Source: Anaerolineae bacterium
Lineage (GTDB): Bacteria > Chloroflexota > Anaerolineae > 4572-78 > J111
Assembly (NCBI GenBank): GCA_020433835.1
Contig: JAGRBY010000169.1
Coordinates: 1-12,364, forward strand
DNA length: 12,364 bases
Reading direction: 5' to 3'
Below the pieces are notes generated by a model. The model saw only the letters and a program-made list of their open reading frames with translations. It had not been told where the DNA came from and did not search any database. Positions 7,501-12,364 of this stretch are shown one piece after another (the first letter of the stretch is position 1; every line of letters begins with the position of its first letter). The position numbers and the translations under genes are program-made.

Positions 7501-8190
7501 GCCCAAAATGAGTGTCCAGGTGCTATCGCCCACAGAAATGTTAGATGTTTGGGTTTTTTCGGTTATGGCCTCAGCTCCCCAAAATTGAATTTTGTCGGCA
7601 TCATACAATTGAAATTTATAAGAGGGCGGCAATTGGGGCTCGACATCCTTTAAAATCTGATCGATATCAAAAATGCCTTGAACCAGGCCAAGAAACGTAT
7701 TCTGTTGATACAACGGTGTACGCGCTATAATGGCGAGAGAGCCTTGAAAAGTGAGGGTAGGGTTGGTAATGGTAATTTGGCGTTGACGAATGGCCTTTTC
7801 AATGAAAGGAGCGGCCGGATGCGTTGTGAGATCGAGGTTGAGCACCGGTTCGTTGCCGGCTAACGGATAAATGTAGCGAATGATGCGATCCGTATCAACA
7901 TATTGAACGGTTTTGATAGTAGGATAGGTAACCACCAACTCAGCAGCGAAACGATCAAACGTTTGGTTGTTGGGTAGGGTTGGAGTCGCTAGCATAAAAG
8001 CCTTGAGATTCTCTACGGCAGCCAAGTGCAATCGGATAGTCGAAAGCAGACTTTTTTGAAACTCTTTCATTTCTTCCGCTAGAGCATCAGTATTACGCTT
8101 ATCAATTTGCTGCCGATATTGATAATCAATAAACAGCATGATGATCAGTCCGGTTGCAGCTATTAAAAACAAGACCGGCCATCGCTTCAT
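4570..8190 (-). CDS. CHASE-PAS-PAS-GAF-PAS hybrid sensor histidine kinase
   Basis: A 1206-residue membrane-bound hybrid kinase. Segments in order: TM1 at 5-21; extracytoplasmic CHASE domain at about 40-235, with LNLDLTTHPAAPFIEKA and an IARTPLY strand; TM2 at about 240-262; PAS/PAC at 290-413 (WEDRVHPDD); PAS/PAC at 425-538; GAF at 550-695; PAS/PAC at 700-818 (VIHPDD). HisKA carries His842 in GGIAHDFNNIL. The HATPase has Asn955 (N box), Asp998 in SDSGHGM, and GQGTGLGLA (1022-1030). The C-terminal receiver at 1084-1203 has acidic Glu1089/Asp1090, phosphoacceptor Asp1135, Ser1164 and Lys1186. All catalytic residues are present, so it should autophosphorylate and relay. There is no output domain, and no phosphotransfer protein or regulator is adjacent. 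GGGAG 5 nt upstream supports the start. The ligand is unknown. Confidence 0.95.
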   Translation of the reverse strand: MKRWPVLFLIAATGLIIMLFIDYQYRQQIDKRNTDALAEEMKEFQKSLLSTIRLHLAAVENLKAFMLATPTLPNNQTFDRFAAELVVTYPTIKTVQYVDTDRIIRYIYPLAGNEPVLNLDLTTHPAAPFIEKAIRQRQITITNPTLTFQGSLAIIARTPLYQQNTFLGLVQGIFDIDQILKDVEPQLPPSYKFQLYDADKIQFWGAEAITEKTQTSNISVGDSTWTLILGWDTPPFQPDTLTLLLIWGGGTLLLLSVLFIVNQTWLNTERLTSAVDHNISARKRVEENLRESETRFQLAVQAANVGLWDWNIQKNIVHYSPEWKRQIGYDDDEITTAFSEWEDRVHPDDIERMRKTITAYLKKPWPNYEEEFRLRHKDGSYLWILTTASLFHDENGQPVRMLGGHIDITRKKEIEHALQASELLLRETSKIAMVGGWEFDAATLQGQWTEMVTSIHEIDPNYPASVEYALTFFPEESRQLVENAVKNAIERGEPYDLEVEFISSKGNHKWIRTIATPIWENNKVVKIRGVLQDISTRKQAELLRQRYADRLEALYQIAQTILSAQSPEEIGQAALIHLEGLIAYQQATINLFNLKNNEAVVIAEYPAYQEHSQQGKYLPLTLSANDLDILRQGNTLITTHSEATDTRLNAPLLFQNEILGTLTIWPSTLDTSNEENQQIVQEVANQLAIAIQNAQLTNRFRRVITSISDCIYMTEMTASGHSTNQYVSPQIHQLTGYSEQTYLTDWRFWIDNVIHPDDRADAAVQWAKLTRGQDSETEYRIIRADGDVVWVRDNARAESMADGSKLIYGVVSNITERKRLEEQLYQAQKMEAIGRLAGGIAHDFNNILTVITGFGELILQNRLNKDDPMRQDVEQIVKAGHRAATLTQQLLAYSRKQMLQPRIINLNHTIEHMSKMLKRLLGEDINLVTQFYPNLGTVKIDPGQIDQVLVNLAINARDAMPQGGQLTIETANAELDETYAHTHIDVTPGHYIMLSVSDSGHGMDSATQSQAFEPFFTTKDRGQGTGLGLAMVQGIIKQSGGHIWLYSELGQGTIFKIYLPRIDASSPVQTYPSSAFETTDGSETILLIEDEAMVKDFTYRILTDKGYTVLTASNGREALTIVDQYNQTIDLLITDVILPEGMNGVQTATILVKQYPKLKVLYISGYTDNVIIHYGVLDSGLFFLEKPFTPKALLLKIRELLNEGDS

Positions 8191-8367
8191 TGGTGCTCCC
8201 TTTCGTTGGCTTCTTTGCTCTAAGTATTATATTGTTGACAGAGGATGCGAAGGTAATTATAACCCACCCTATCTTTACTAACCAACCTTTCCTCTGTTAT
8301 TTGATCTAAAAGAACAACCTGCACTATCATGATGCCATCTCATAGGGGAAAGTGTAGAGAGCGCGCA
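8191..8367. promoter_or_regulatory. Divergent intergenic region (kinase / glycerol-kinase-like)
   Basis: This 177-bp gap separates two divergent genes. The plus-strand promoter at 8235-8263 lies close to a perfect TATAAT on the minus strand (complement of 8226-8231), a possible -10 for the kinase. No good minus-strand -35 was found at the right spacing. The two transcription starts would be close, so their expression may be linked. Confidence 0.35.
8235..8263 (+). promoter_or_regulatory. Sigma70-type promoter of the glycerol-kinase-like gene
   Basis: TTGACA (8235-8240), a 17-nt spacer and TATAAC (8258-8263) give a perfect -35 and a 5-of-6 -10. This is the strongest promoter match in the window. 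Transcription would start near 8270, about 100 nt before the start codon at 8368. Confidence 0.75.
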
Positions 8368-9921
8368 ATGACAAATTATCTTATCACCGTAGATCAAAGC
8401 ACTCATAGTACAAAGTGTATTATTTTTAATCGTCTTGGTCAGGTAGTGAGCCAGGCCGAATTAAAACATCGGCAGGTTCATCCTGAAGCCGGTTGGCTTG
8501 AGCATTATCCGCTGGAAATTTGGGCCAATACCCAGGTGGTTATCACCAGCGCCATGAGCCAAGCCGGGCTTAAGGCTCGCGATATTGCCGCTGTTGGTTT
8601 AGCCAACCAGCGCGAAACCACTGTGGTGTGGAATAAGCGCACCGGCAAACCATATTACAATGCCATTGTCTGGCGCGATATCCGTACTGTAGAAATCTGT
8701 AAGCGGCTGGCTCGAAACGGTGGTCAAGATCGCTTCCGGCCTTATGTTGGCTTGCCGATTGCCACCTACTTCTCGGCTCCCAAATTGAAGTGGTTGCTGG
8801 ACAATGTTGAGGGACTGCGCGATGATGCCGAATGCGGCGAGGCCATCTTTGGCACGATAGATTCGTGGTTGGTCTGGAATCTAACCGGCGGTGTTAACGG
8901 CGGCGTGCATATCACCGATGTCACCAACGCCTCGCGCACTATGCTCATGAATTTAGCCACTGGCACCTGGAACCAAGACATCTGTGAGATCATGGCGGTT
9001 CCGGAAGCGATGCTGCCCCAAATTCGCCCCTCCAGCGATCCCAACATTTACGGCCATACCCAGCCTGACGGCCCGGTCGGGGGGAGCGTGCCTATTTGCG
9101 GTATTTTAGGTTCGCAGCAAGCGGCGGCTGTCGGTCAAGTTTGTTTTCGTCCTCAAGAAGTTAAAAATAGCTATGATGGAGCTTCGTTTGTGGTGATGAA
9201 TACCGGCTCCAAAATTATTGCCTCTGAACGGGGGTTGCTAACAACGGTCTGTTATAAATTTGGCAACCAACCCACCACCTATGCTCTGGAGGGGTCGATT
9301 GCCTTCACCGGTGCGGTCGTCGACTGGCTGCGCGATAATTTAGGCATCATCGAAGATTTTTCAGACGTCGAAGCCCTGGCCAAGACGGTGGACGATAACG
9401 GCGGCGGTTACTTTGTCCCGGCCTTCAAGGGGCTGTTTGCCCCCTACTGGCGCAGCGAAGCCCGGGGCGCGGTGGTCGGTCTGACGCATCATACCAATCG
9501 CGGGCACCTGGCTCGAGCGGCTTTAGAATCTATTGCTTACCAGACCTACAGTATTCTGGAGGCCATGGAAAGCGATTTCGGAGCGCAAGTATTGGCCCTT
9601 AAGGCCGATGGCGAAATGACCAACAATGATCTGTTGATGCAGTTTCAGGCCGATCTTTTGGGCGTGCCGGTTGTACGGCCCGAAGTGAAAGAAACCACCG
9701 CTCTAGGAGCCGCCTATGCCGCCGGATTAGCCATCGGCTTTTGGCGCGATCTGGCCGAAATTCAGCAGCAGTGGACTATCGACAAAGTGTGGAAACCGGG
9801 TATGAGCCGTGAAACACGTACCAAACTCTATACCGGCTGGCAAAAGGCGGTTACACGCACCTTCTGCTGGACCGACGAAGTACCGGCCCTTCAAGTGGAA
9901 ATGCCGATGAGTTTTGGATAG
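8368..9921 (+). CDS. Glycerol-kinase-family (FGGY) protein with altered active site
   Basis: A full-length (517-residue) cytoplasmic FGGY protein, very similar overall to GlpK, which makes glycerol 3-phosphate from glycerol and ATP. Glycerol-contact residues are kept: Arg82-Glu83, Trp102, Tyr134, and Phe274. However, the catalytic Asp (E. coli Asp245, in GDQQAA) is Ser249 in GSQQAA. The ATP-site motifs also differ: DQGTTSS is DQSTHST (9-15), YGTG is YDGA (269-272), GLGAPYW is GLFAPYW (355-361), and DGGAVANN is DGEMTNND (414-421). The reading frame is intact, so I infer a maintained pseudo-kinase or an enzyme with changed chemistry. The start at 8368 matches the family N-terminus and follows AGAGAG; upstream ATGs at 8329 and 8332 would add 12-13 unconserved residues. 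It is divergent from the hybrid kinase. Confidence 0.9.
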
Positions 9922-9946
9922 GTTAGTGTTTGTGCCTAGATATCGA

Positions 9947-10432
9947 TTACAGGCCAGCCCTATTTTGGCTTTGTAGGGCAGTAAGTTTCTCATGAATTAG
10001 GGCGATGGCCTGGTTTTGTGCTTCAAGGTGCTCTATAATAAGCCGAATCTCCTCTTCGGCTTTTTGATTGATGACATAGTCGTGATGTGCTTCCAACCGA
10101 TCCTTGGCCGACTGACGATTTTGACTCATCATAATGATGGGCGCAGCATAAGCCGCCTGAAGCGACAGCCCCAAATTGAGCAAAATAAACGGATACGGAT
10201 CCCAATGTTGAAACCAGGCTACGACATTAAGAATAATCCACATCGTCAACAGCAATGATTGGGCAATGATAAAAGGCCACGACCCCATAACCCCGGCCAC
10301 CCGATCGGCAATGCGTTGGCCAAAGGTGAGCTGTTCTTCAAACAACGCATTGATATTTTGCACTGGCGGATGTCGATGGGTGAAGGGCGATGGGAAAACC
10401 AGTTTACCCATCGATGGATTAGATCGGGTCAT
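9947..10432 (-). CDS. DUF1003 family membrane protein
   Basis: A 161-residue protein with the DUF1003 pattern: FGQRIADRVAGVMGSWPFI (37-55), two membrane segments at about 50-73 and 80-103, the signature DPYPFILLNLGLS (77-89), then SQNRQSAKDR and a charged helical tail (about 108-158) with heptad-like spacing suggesting a coiled coil. The function of this family is not established. GAGG about 5 nt upstream lies inside the end of the permease gene. The start codon is only 2 bp after the permease stop, so the two are almost certainly co-transcribed and perhaps translationally coupled. It converges with the glycerol-kinase-like gene 25 bp away, with no terminator seen between. Confidence 0.88.
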   Translation of the reverse strand: MTRSNPSMGKLVFPSPFTHRHPPVQNINALFEEQLTFGQRIADRVAGVMGSWPFIIAQSLLLTMWIILNVVAWFQHWDPYPFILLNLGLSLQAAYAAPIIMMSQNRQSAKDRLEAHHDYVINQKAEEEIRLIIEHLEAQNQAIALIHEKLTALQSQNRAGL

Positions 10433-10434
10433 GG

Positions 10435-12364
10435 TTACCTCGCTGAAACTTGTTCGGATTGGTTATCATTATTATCGCCGCTGTGGACTTTTACGTGGCG
10501 GAACTGCTTGCCGTCGGCCACGGTAATGACCATGCGAACATCAATATTTTTCGGAATAAGATCGAAATCTTGTAGAGTCCAGATAGTTGTAATGCGCCCG
10601 CTAAGGTTAGGCCACTGAGCTTTGGCCCACAGATAACGGCGTCGACAAAACTGCCAAATTGGTTCAGGTTGACGCGTTGGTTGAAAGGCGCAATATCCCG
10701 CCCAAATCGTATCGTGATCCTCCTGGGGAAATAAAACGTCAACCATCGCTTGCTGCACGTCGGCCGCATCACGGCCATATTCCGGAGCCACCCAGTTGAC
10801 ATGATAGTTGCGAATGAACATGAAGATACCAAAGCGCGAGTAATGCTCAATCTGTTTAACAATCTCCTCGCGTTGGCTGTAGGCAAGCTGGTATGTTTCC
10901 TCAAGCTTAATGTTAGGTTCCTCAATCCGTTCGTAATCTTCATGTTCTTCATAGTGATTAAACAGCGCATGGTCGATGTTGTACAGATACGCTACCAGGA
11001 TTCTAAGGCGCTCAGGGCCGACATCAAACTGGGCTAACGTATTGGATTCAATGAGATCATCTAAGGCATCAACAACCCCACGCTGCCGAGCGTAGTCGTG
11101 CGCCCGCTGAATGCCCATTTCAAACCTGGGTTTGTGATCGCCTGTATGGGGCACAGGCGGCACCTCGTTCATGACCGATACGCGTTTAAAGCCACCGTTG
11201 GCAATATAAATTTGGTAGAGCGTTATCGCTGCGCCGGCCAGAATGATAACCCCCAATGCCTCGGTCTTCTGGGTAACCAGCACAGCCGCCATAAAATAGC
11301 TGGCAATCATGCCGCGTAGTCCGGCAAAATGCAGAGAGCGGGCTTCGGGCGAACCTGGGGTGATGCCACGCTGGCGGAGAATATCGTCTCGTACAAAAAA
11401 TACCGTCGTACTGGTGATGACAAACGCACTGACAAAACCGAAGGCGTAATACGCCTCAACCACAACCACCTGCCGGATAATCGGAATGAGCACGGCTGAG
11501 ATGGCCCAGATCACGGCAATACCAATCCGGTCATCGGTGAAGAAATGGGGCAATCGCCCCAAACGCGCGGCATTGGCGGCCACAGCCGCCCCGCCGACAT
11601 ATCCACCCCCTTGTGCCAGCAGCAAAATAATCGCCAGCAGCAGCCCGGCTACGGTTAAAAATGTCTGGCCGGTTGTGCCGGCAATCGCGCTTTTTATAGC
11701 CCGAGAAATGGCGATGTCATAGGCGACCGTGTTGATGAACTCGCTCTCAGACAGGCGGTCGCGCTCGCTGGCCAGGTGTGATTCGGTCTCGCCAAACAAC
11801 TCTTCCGAGGCCCGAGCCGCTGGGATCGAGTTGTAGAGATTGGCCGCGGCTTGCCGATCGTTGTTGGTTACAATAATATCTTTCGGCTCAATGCCTTCGC
11901 CAAAAACTTGAACCGCGCCGATTTCATATTCAATCAGTAAGGTGCTGTAGCCTTCGGTTGCGGGGATGTTCCACAGCTTAGCGGCGTATAGCTGCACCAC
12001 GCCGGTGCCGATCAAAAAAACAGCCGCCAGTGTAAGCGCGGTGTTAATAACTTTCCATTTGGGGCGAGCGGCGTGCTTGCCGCTGGCCGGAATAACTTCG
12101 TACCCGGAAAAGCCGAGCATTGCGCTCGACATCGAGTGAAAGAACAACTGAAACATGAGTAGTGTCCCGATGGCTGAAATATCTTCGCGAACCTGAATTA
12201 CCTGTTCAACAACACCGTTCGCTTCCAGTCGGTTGACAATACCTTCCGTTAAAAAGGCCCACTGCGGATGAATTATGGCCGTAACGCCCACCATTCCCAG
12301 AGCGCCCAGCGTAAAAAGGGTGAACAGGCCACCGCCAATCAAAAACAAGGGTACAGCCCGCTTA
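10435..12364 (-). CDS. APC-superfamily amino acid permease with large C-terminal soluble domain (5' partial)
   Basis: The N-terminus lies beyond the right edge; the frame stays open to 12363. Counting from a TTG at 12348, the visible 637 residues hold membrane segments at about 2-26, 60-82, 101-124, 226-246, 274-294, 298-320, 345-360 and 364-383. GFSGYEVIPASGKHAARPKW (79-98) resembles the APC G-Y-E followed by basic-Pro pattern, and GGAAVAANAARLGRLPHFF (252-270) the later APC motif. These suggest a transporter of amino acids or similar solutes. Two things are unusual: a polar stretch of about 100 residues (125-222) between membrane segments, and a soluble tail of about 250 residues (385-637) rich in aromatic and charged residues that I do not recognise. 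DUF1003 follows 2 bp downstream. The substrate cannot be stated. Confidence 0.8.
   Translation of the reverse strand, partial: KRAVPLFLIGGGLFTLFTLGALGMVGVTAIIHPQWAFLTEGIVNRLEANGVVEQVIQVREDISAIGTLLMFQLFFHSMSSAMLGFSGYEVIPASGKHAARPKWKVINTALTLAAVFLIGTGVVQLYAAKLWNIPATEGYSTLLIEYEIGAVQVFGEGIEPKDIIVTNNDRQAAANLYNSIPAARASEELFGETESHLASERDRLSESEFINTVAYDIAISRAIKSAIAGTTGQTFLTVAGLLLAIILLLAQGGGYVGGAAVAANAARLGRLPHFFTDDRIGIAVIWAISAVLIPIIRQVVVVEAYYAFGFVSAFVITSTTVFFVRDDILRQRGITPGSPEARSLHFAGLRGMIASYFMAAVLVTQKTEALGVIILAGAAITLYQIYIANGGFKRVSVMNEVPPVPHTGDHKPRFEMGIQRAHDYARQRGVVDALDDLIESNTLAQFDVGPERLRILVAYLYNIDHALFNHYEEHEDYERIEEPNIKLEETYQLAYSQREEIVKQIEHYSRFGIFMFIRNYHVNWVAPEYGRDAADVQQAMVDVLFPQEDHDTIWAGYCAFQPTRQPEPIWQFCRRRYLWAKAQWPNLSGRITTIWTLQDFDLIPKNIDVRMVITVADGKQFRHVKVHSGDNNDNQSEQVSAR

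Follow-up and report, generated by a model that had tools for sequence, protein, structure and literature searches.

In kinases of the FGGY family, to which glycerol kinase (GlpK) belongs, an aspartate is the catalytic base and glycine-rich segments bind the nucleotide; yeast Gal3 belongs to another kinase family. Pseudoenzymes derived from metabolic kinases are already known in eukaryotes. Gal3 is presented in PMC8964464 as a metabolic-kinase paralogue that lacks kinase activity and serves as a ligand-dependent signal transducer of its pathway, and the mammalian glycerol kinase paralogues Gykl1 and Gk2 are described in PMC5566117 as having no detectable glycerol kinase activity and as likely adaptors. 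The nearest bacterial arrangement to the one described here is LsrK/HPr/LsrR of Escherichia coli, in which the FGGY kinase LsrK, whose structures with HPr have been determined (5ya0-5ya2), acts via LsrR, and LsrR senses a phosphorylated product (PMC10223898). In both this system and DhaK-DhaL-DhaR of E. coli, a kinase of a sugar or triose provides the input to a transcription regulator, and proteins of the phosphotransferase system (PTS) take part. We describe a glycerol kinase homologue without the catalytic Asp, here called pseudo-GlpK, which is encoded on a contig of 12,364 nucleotides from an Anaerolineae bacterium (JAGRBY010000169.1, assembly GCA_020433835.1), referred to as the window. 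The gene is maintained and conserved, not in the window alone but across a limited set of Chloroflexota bacteria. It differs from LsrK and DhaK, which are active kinases, and from Gykl1 and Gk2, which are eukaryotic and mitochondrial, have no operon or transcription factor, and resemble it by their reported inactivity. The function of Gal3 has been demonstrated, whereas that of pseudo-GlpK is inferred. No paper on a bacterial pseudo-GlpK was found by title or by the start of the abstract among the papers listed from the open-licence PMC literature.

A clade of glycerol kinase homologues with an altered ATP site

The pseudo-GlpK coding sequence occupies 8368..9921 on the + strand and encodes 517 amino acids from an ATG at 8368, which is the start that fits the family; the open reading frame listing places the start 13 codons earlier (8329-9921, 530 amino acids). 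As the initial annotation had proposed, the protein is an end-to-end GlpK homologue with an intact reading frame. It carries the PF00370 (FGGY_N) and PF02782 (FGGY_C) domains, matches the NCBI GlpK equivalog model TIGR01311 over its whole length with 680 bits (cut-off, 590), and is 61-65% identical to canonical GlpK sequences among the matches listed. A search of 5.8 billion proteins, in which about 8000 candidates were scored and the best 120 were listed per search, divided the 120 listed clusters into 29 with Ser at position 245 (GSQQ) and the hairpin SYD(G/T)(A/S)SF (P0001-P0027, P0051, and P0090) and 91 canonical clusters with the catalytic Asp and TYGTGCF. Nearly all of the Ser245 clusters also have DQST in the N-terminal motif, the exceptions being P0001 with DQGT and P0022, which is truncated at the N terminus and was excluded from A1 and from the tree. 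When a profile of the clade was used as the query, the same 29 clusters came out on top with 929-1046 bits, separated by a gap from the next match at 896 bits; no additional clade member was found among the 120 listed, and the 23 extra proteins were all canonical. In a tree with the 22 signature columns masked, which comprised every fourth canonical row (29 of 114), 16 loci, and four canonical genes from the examined genomes and was rooted on the long E. coli branch, the Ser245 clade was monophyletic with 100/100 support, P0090 being a long row. The clade nests within the canonical Anaerolineae GlpK sequences, its stem measuring 0.3 changes per column. The prediction that homologues with Ser at the Asp245 position would share a clade is thus borne out, with nearly all members carrying the same changes.

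Residues are numbered below as in the E. coli GlpK structure (PDB numbering), except Ser249, Arg103, and Asp319, which are those of the window protein, and counts compare 30 clade rows (29 clusters and the window protein) with 114 canonical rows (91, plus 23 from the second search). The catalytic Asp245 is present in 114/114 canonical rows and is replaced by Ser in 30/30 clade rows; in the window it corresponds to Ser249 (9112..9114, +), as had been read earlier from GSQQ in place of GDQQ. Sequencing error and chance are rejected as the source of this change, because 29 of the 120 listed clusters have the same motifs and Asp to Ser at position 245 requires at least two base changes. The phosphate-binding hairpin NTYGTGCF has become NSYDGASF (9166..9189, +), with G266D in 30/30 rows, T267G in 29/30, G268 replaced by Ala in 25 or Ser in 5, and C269S in 30/30; the YDGA noted earlier lies at 9172-9183 (+). 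The N-terminal DQGTTST reads DQSTHST (8392..8412, +), in which Asp10 and Thr13 are kept and Gly12 and Thr14 are changed; this departure had also been read correctly, and it lies outside the range 9109..9630 that the initial annotation gave for the feature. A catalytic role for the histidine of DQSTHxT was considered and rejected, the position being His in 21, Arg in 5, Asp in 2, and Asn in 1 of the 29 readable rows. Near the C terminus, DGEMTNND (9607..9630, +) departs from the canonical DGGMVxNx, as proposed, with Gly411 lost and variable and Val413 replaced by Thr in 28/30 rows. Arg103 (8674..8676, +), the equivalent of E. coli Gln104 beside the glycerol-contacting Trp103, is Arg throughout the clade (30/30), and Asp319 (9322..9324, +) stands for E. 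coli Gln314, which is Gln in 114/114 canonical rows and Glu (24) or Asp (6) in the clade. In contrast, the GLFAPYW at 9430-9450 (+), also claimed as a departure, is ordinary: GLFAPYW or GLYAPYW occurs in the 91 canonical rows and in the Cellulomonas kinase 2d4w.

Thr14, Gln314, and Gly411 are gone from every readable clade row, and Thr267 (29/30), Ser15 (27/29), Arg17 (25/29), and Ala311 (28/30) are lost from most, while Asp10, Thr13, and Gly310 are kept and Asn415 is kept in 27/30. The newly fixed residues are Arg104, Ser264, Asp266, and Ser269 (30/30 each), Gly267 (29/30), and Glu or Asp at 314 (30/30). Among 251 columns conserved at 97% or more in the canonical rows, 36 have the canonical residue in fewer than half of the clade rows. 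The changed columns make up 10 of the 13 on an assumed list of ATP-site columns and 26 of the 238 others (P = 2e-7), and 6 of the 9 on a stricter assumed ATP list (P = 4e-4); the 13-column list takes in the motif glycines named in the initial annotation. The changes are therefore concentrated at the phosphoryl-transfer site, as had been suggested, but not confined to it, with 26 of the 36 lying elsewhere.

The glycerol pocket appears intact by comparison. Glycerol is hydrogen-bonded by Arg83, Glu84, Tyr135, and Asp245 and also contacts Phe270, according to PMC3245297. Arg83, Glu84, Trp103, Tyr135, Gln246, and Phe270 are each unchanged in 30/30 clade rows, so that the six contacts other than Asp245 are invariant and the earlier reading of a retained pocket holds. 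Pseudo-GlpK thus shares with GlpK the full-length fold, the domain and model scores, and the glycerol pocket and differs in the absence of Asp245 and of the nucleotide phosphate motifs (DQGTT, YGTG, and Gly411). Its sequence does not allow it to be classed as a functional glycerol kinase because the catalytic residue is absent. The whole clade has lost catalytic residues for good while purifying selection acts on the gene, and three of four carriers have an active-looking paralogue, which agrees with the description of a pseudokinase.

Selection and genomic context

Exact DNA motif searches found pseudo-glpK in four of the 396 genomes sampled for the class and in four of the 25 belonging to the order; of 400 sampled for the phylum, G002 alone carried it. 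A carrier with an altered motif would escape these counts. Among the genomes of the order, three yielded GlpK fragments only and three nothing above the limit; the catalytic residue of noncarriers was read directly in some (four in one check), and the remainder were judged by motif and identity. Plasmid records with a match numbered 899, every one below 60% identity. The full-length reading frame is open in the window and in each of the four carriers, G001, G002, G297, and G319. In the closest pair, G002 and G297, the ratio of nonsynonymous to synonymous substitution rates (dN/dS; Nei-Gojobori method, custom script) is 0.052 for pseudo-glpK and 0.055 for the true glpK, with a synonymous divergence (dS) already at 1.14, and ranges from 0.045 to 0.152 for the other ten operon genes compared. 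The low ratio anticipated for a maintained gene is thus observed, and it matches that of the true enzyme. Between G002 and G319 the values are 0.144 for pseudo-glpK and 0.135 for glpK, with protein identities of 67% and 85%, respectively; further pseudo-glpK values are 0.104 for G297-G319, 0.218 for G319-G001, and 0.078-0.169 at dS 1.6-2.3 for pairs with the window. Judged by these comparisons, pseudo-GlpK evolves faster than true GlpK yet is clearly constrained.

All four carriers have pseudo-glpK within a glycerol (glp/dha) operon with a SorC-family regulator nearby. The gene order in G002 (L002) is glpF-dhaK-dhaL-glpK-glpA-glpB-glpC-methyltransferase-pseudo-glpK-dhaM-HPr-SorC-ketopantoate reductase-ptsI-plsY, where glpA, ptsI, and plsY were named by reading translations and the other operon genes from Pfam matches or similarity to G002. 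G297 has the same frame, except that glpABC is missing between glpK and the methyltransferase gene (L097:5831-8618, +); in its place stand three unassigned open reading frames and a gene for a GlpA-like protein that is shorter (44% identity). In G319, pseudo-glpK immediately precedes SorC, without dhaM or HPr, and G001 (L001) has dhaM-pseudo-glpK-SorC on a contig that stops at glpA, so that the glpK side would lie beyond its end. The expected second, canonical glpK is present in three of the four carriers (G002, G297, and G319), where it lies in the same operon 3.6-5.7 kb from pseudo-glpK; none was found elsewhere in the G001 assembly, whose contig stops before the expected place. The SorC-family regulator matches the models for DeoR and LsrR, but with scores under the cut-off of each. 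Across 80 loci, many of which end early, the GSQQ motif or this SorC occurs only in L001 and L002, and dhaK or dhaL lies beside glpK in 29 of the 47 loci (L003-L049) retrieved with the window protein. Each of the four carriers has an orthologue of the regulator (at least 74% identity), and so does G201, alone among the order's 21 remaining genomes. The association between pseudo-GlpK and SorC is strong, not obligate, and is drawn from few, related genomes.

An identical 22-bp inverted repeat (CTTTGACAATGGGGTTTCAAAG) precedes glpF in G002 (L091:19747-19768) and G297 (L097:1519-1540) and is a candidate operator for the SorC regulator of the operon. Upstream of pseudo-glpK in the window, TTGACA was spotted by eye at 8235-8240. 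The description of the gene as well promoted finds no support, as 8100-10050, scanned on both strands, contains four sigma-70-like sites in all, two of them upstream of pseudo-glpK on its strand, against 2.5 ± 1.5 in shuffled sequences. Also in the window, a 637-amino-acid open reading frame (10435-12348, -) looks by eye like an amino acid permease-type membrane protein; it comes close to the edge of the window and may be truncated, and no Pfam or NCBIfam model matched it at an E value of 0.001. Its homologues (69-70% identity) occur in 2 of the 25 genomes of the order, and two of the neighbouring genes in the window gave scattered matches in these genomes (the permease-like frame in G270 and G106; DUF1003 in G319 and G232), which give no date for a move of pseudo-glpK. 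Two further kinases were encountered. In G001, a GlpK-like protein (L084:1375-2880, -) is 35% identical to the window protein, scores 402 bits, below the GlpK cut-off of 590, and has GNEQ (Asn) at the catalytic Asp and a SHGTASF phosphate loop; by its motifs it may be a further member of the FGGY family whose catalytic site has changed. L022 carries a glycerol kinase and dha genes and bears the label Caldisericota, yet its kinase groups among Chloroflexota rows; the contig is likely a mislabelled metagenome-assembled genome or a transfer.

Roles considered for pseudo-GlpK

Pseudo-GlpK is probably a regulatory, glycerol-binding pseudokinase, whichever its partner, because the catalytic base and phosphate contacts are lost, the pocket is kept, a true paralogue lies in the same operon, a regulator is encoded nearby, and the gene is under purifying selection. 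From these observations we infer its ligand, catalytic inactivity, signalling, and partner. In one Anaerolineae lineage, a glycerol kinase duplicate would have shed the catalytic Asp along with most contacts to ATP, retained the two-domain fold and the glycerol pocket, and become fixed as a separate protein. The protein would bind glycerol, a close triol, or glycerol-3-phosphate (G3P) in the interdomain cleft, the cleft would close without ATP, and the closed state would be relayed to a partner that controls glycerol and dihydroxyacetone use. The most probable partners would be the SorC-family regulator encoded near pseudo-glpK in the four genomes, at somewhat under an even chance, or, more tentatively, true GlpK in a mixed oligomer.

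Several observations weigh against this interpretation. In the window, pseudo-glpK lies outside the glycerol operon and has no SorC, dhaM, HPr, or glp gene next to it; it therefore acts in trans, or this lineage uses it differently. A glpF-dhaKL-glpK-methyltransferase-dhaM-SorC operon in G201 (L154:2861-9347, -) has no pseudo-GlpK, from which it follows that SorC does not need the protein, and a strict dependence is weakened; this operon offers a ready comparison for the role of pseudo-GlpK. Adjacency to SorC is weak evidence by itself because SorC-like genes also adjoin ordinary FGGY kinases, as in G319:C21, where a SorC-like match lies 30 bases beyond a kinase with an intact GDSH. The 22-bp repeat was not found in the window, by its core pattern, or in the searched stretches of G319 and G201, which leaves coregulation through it unsupported. 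The retained Asp10, Thr13, and Gly310 and the mostly retained Asn415 may allow residual nucleotide or metal binding, and the invariant new Arg104, Asp266, and Glu/Asp314 could mean new chemistry instead of none. The best predicted structure of the window protein has a mean confidence (pLDDT) of 79.8, which is moderate, with residues 352-367 below 50, and the other four models reach 50-64. One usable close pair carries the dN/dS result, G002-G001 and G297-G001 being saturated and giving no value, and the distant pairs range from 0.078 to 0.218 at dS 1.2 to 2.3.

A regulatory subunit of true GlpK, tuning its activity in mixed dimers or tetramers with no transcriptional role, is a possible though doubtful alternative that overlaps the regulatory interpretation. 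E. coli GlpK is an allosteric oligomer, the canonical gene shares the operon in three of four carriers at a distance of 3.6 to 5.7 kb, and the 61-65% identity to listed canonical rows would suit such pairing; against this, pseudo-glpK adjoins SorC and not glpK and is encoded apart in the window. An adaptor that binds DhaM or HPr, in the way that LsrK is bound by HPr, and reports the phosphorylation state of the PTS, which also overlaps the regulatory interpretation, would be unlikely, as canonical glpK operons that lack pseudo-glpK are likewise followed by dhaM and HPr (e.g., L008, L009, L016, and L021) and neither is adjacent in G319. Comparably improbable is that the cleft has been rebuilt and not merely broken, through Ser245 together with the cofixed Arg104, Asp266, and Glu/Asp314. 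It would then be either a switch that works without nucleotide, with a bridge of Arg and acid between the two domains closing it in place of ATP around glycerol or G3P, or the site of new G3P-directed chemistry, and a SorC-type regulator would read it, much as if it were a Gal3 of bacteria. Slightly less likely still is an altered enzyme, which would hydrolyse G3P or transfer phosphate from a donor other than ATP in a cleft with Asp10, Arg104, Asp266, and Glu/Asp314. Three new charged positions cofixed in the cleft motifs (30/30 each) and purifying selection speak for it; we know of no FGGY enzyme without the Asp, however, and two acids at former nucleotide-binding positions would be expected to repel phosphate. 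A decaying pseudogene or sequencing artefact, suggested by the loss of several normally invariant residues, is rejected with near certainty, since the changes are common to 29 of the 120 listed clusters, dN/dS is 0.052, and the frame is open in the window and four genomes.

That the gene encodes a maintained pseudokinase and is not decaying, as first proposed, is therefore well supported by the sequences: the substitutions are shared by 29 clusters, dN/dS in the closest pair is low and matches that of true glpK, and three carriers encode a canonical paralogue. The finding also exposes an annotation trap, as the GlpK equivalog model scores pseudo-GlpK well above its cut-off, as a working kinase; clade members (P0005, P0018, P0025, and others) are named glycerol kinase in those public sources that give names, and metabolic models could count the protein as a working enzyme. 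If the regulatory role is true, a bacterial pseudo-GlpK that shares an operon with its active-looking paralogue would be a simple, testable case of evolution from enzyme to sensor.
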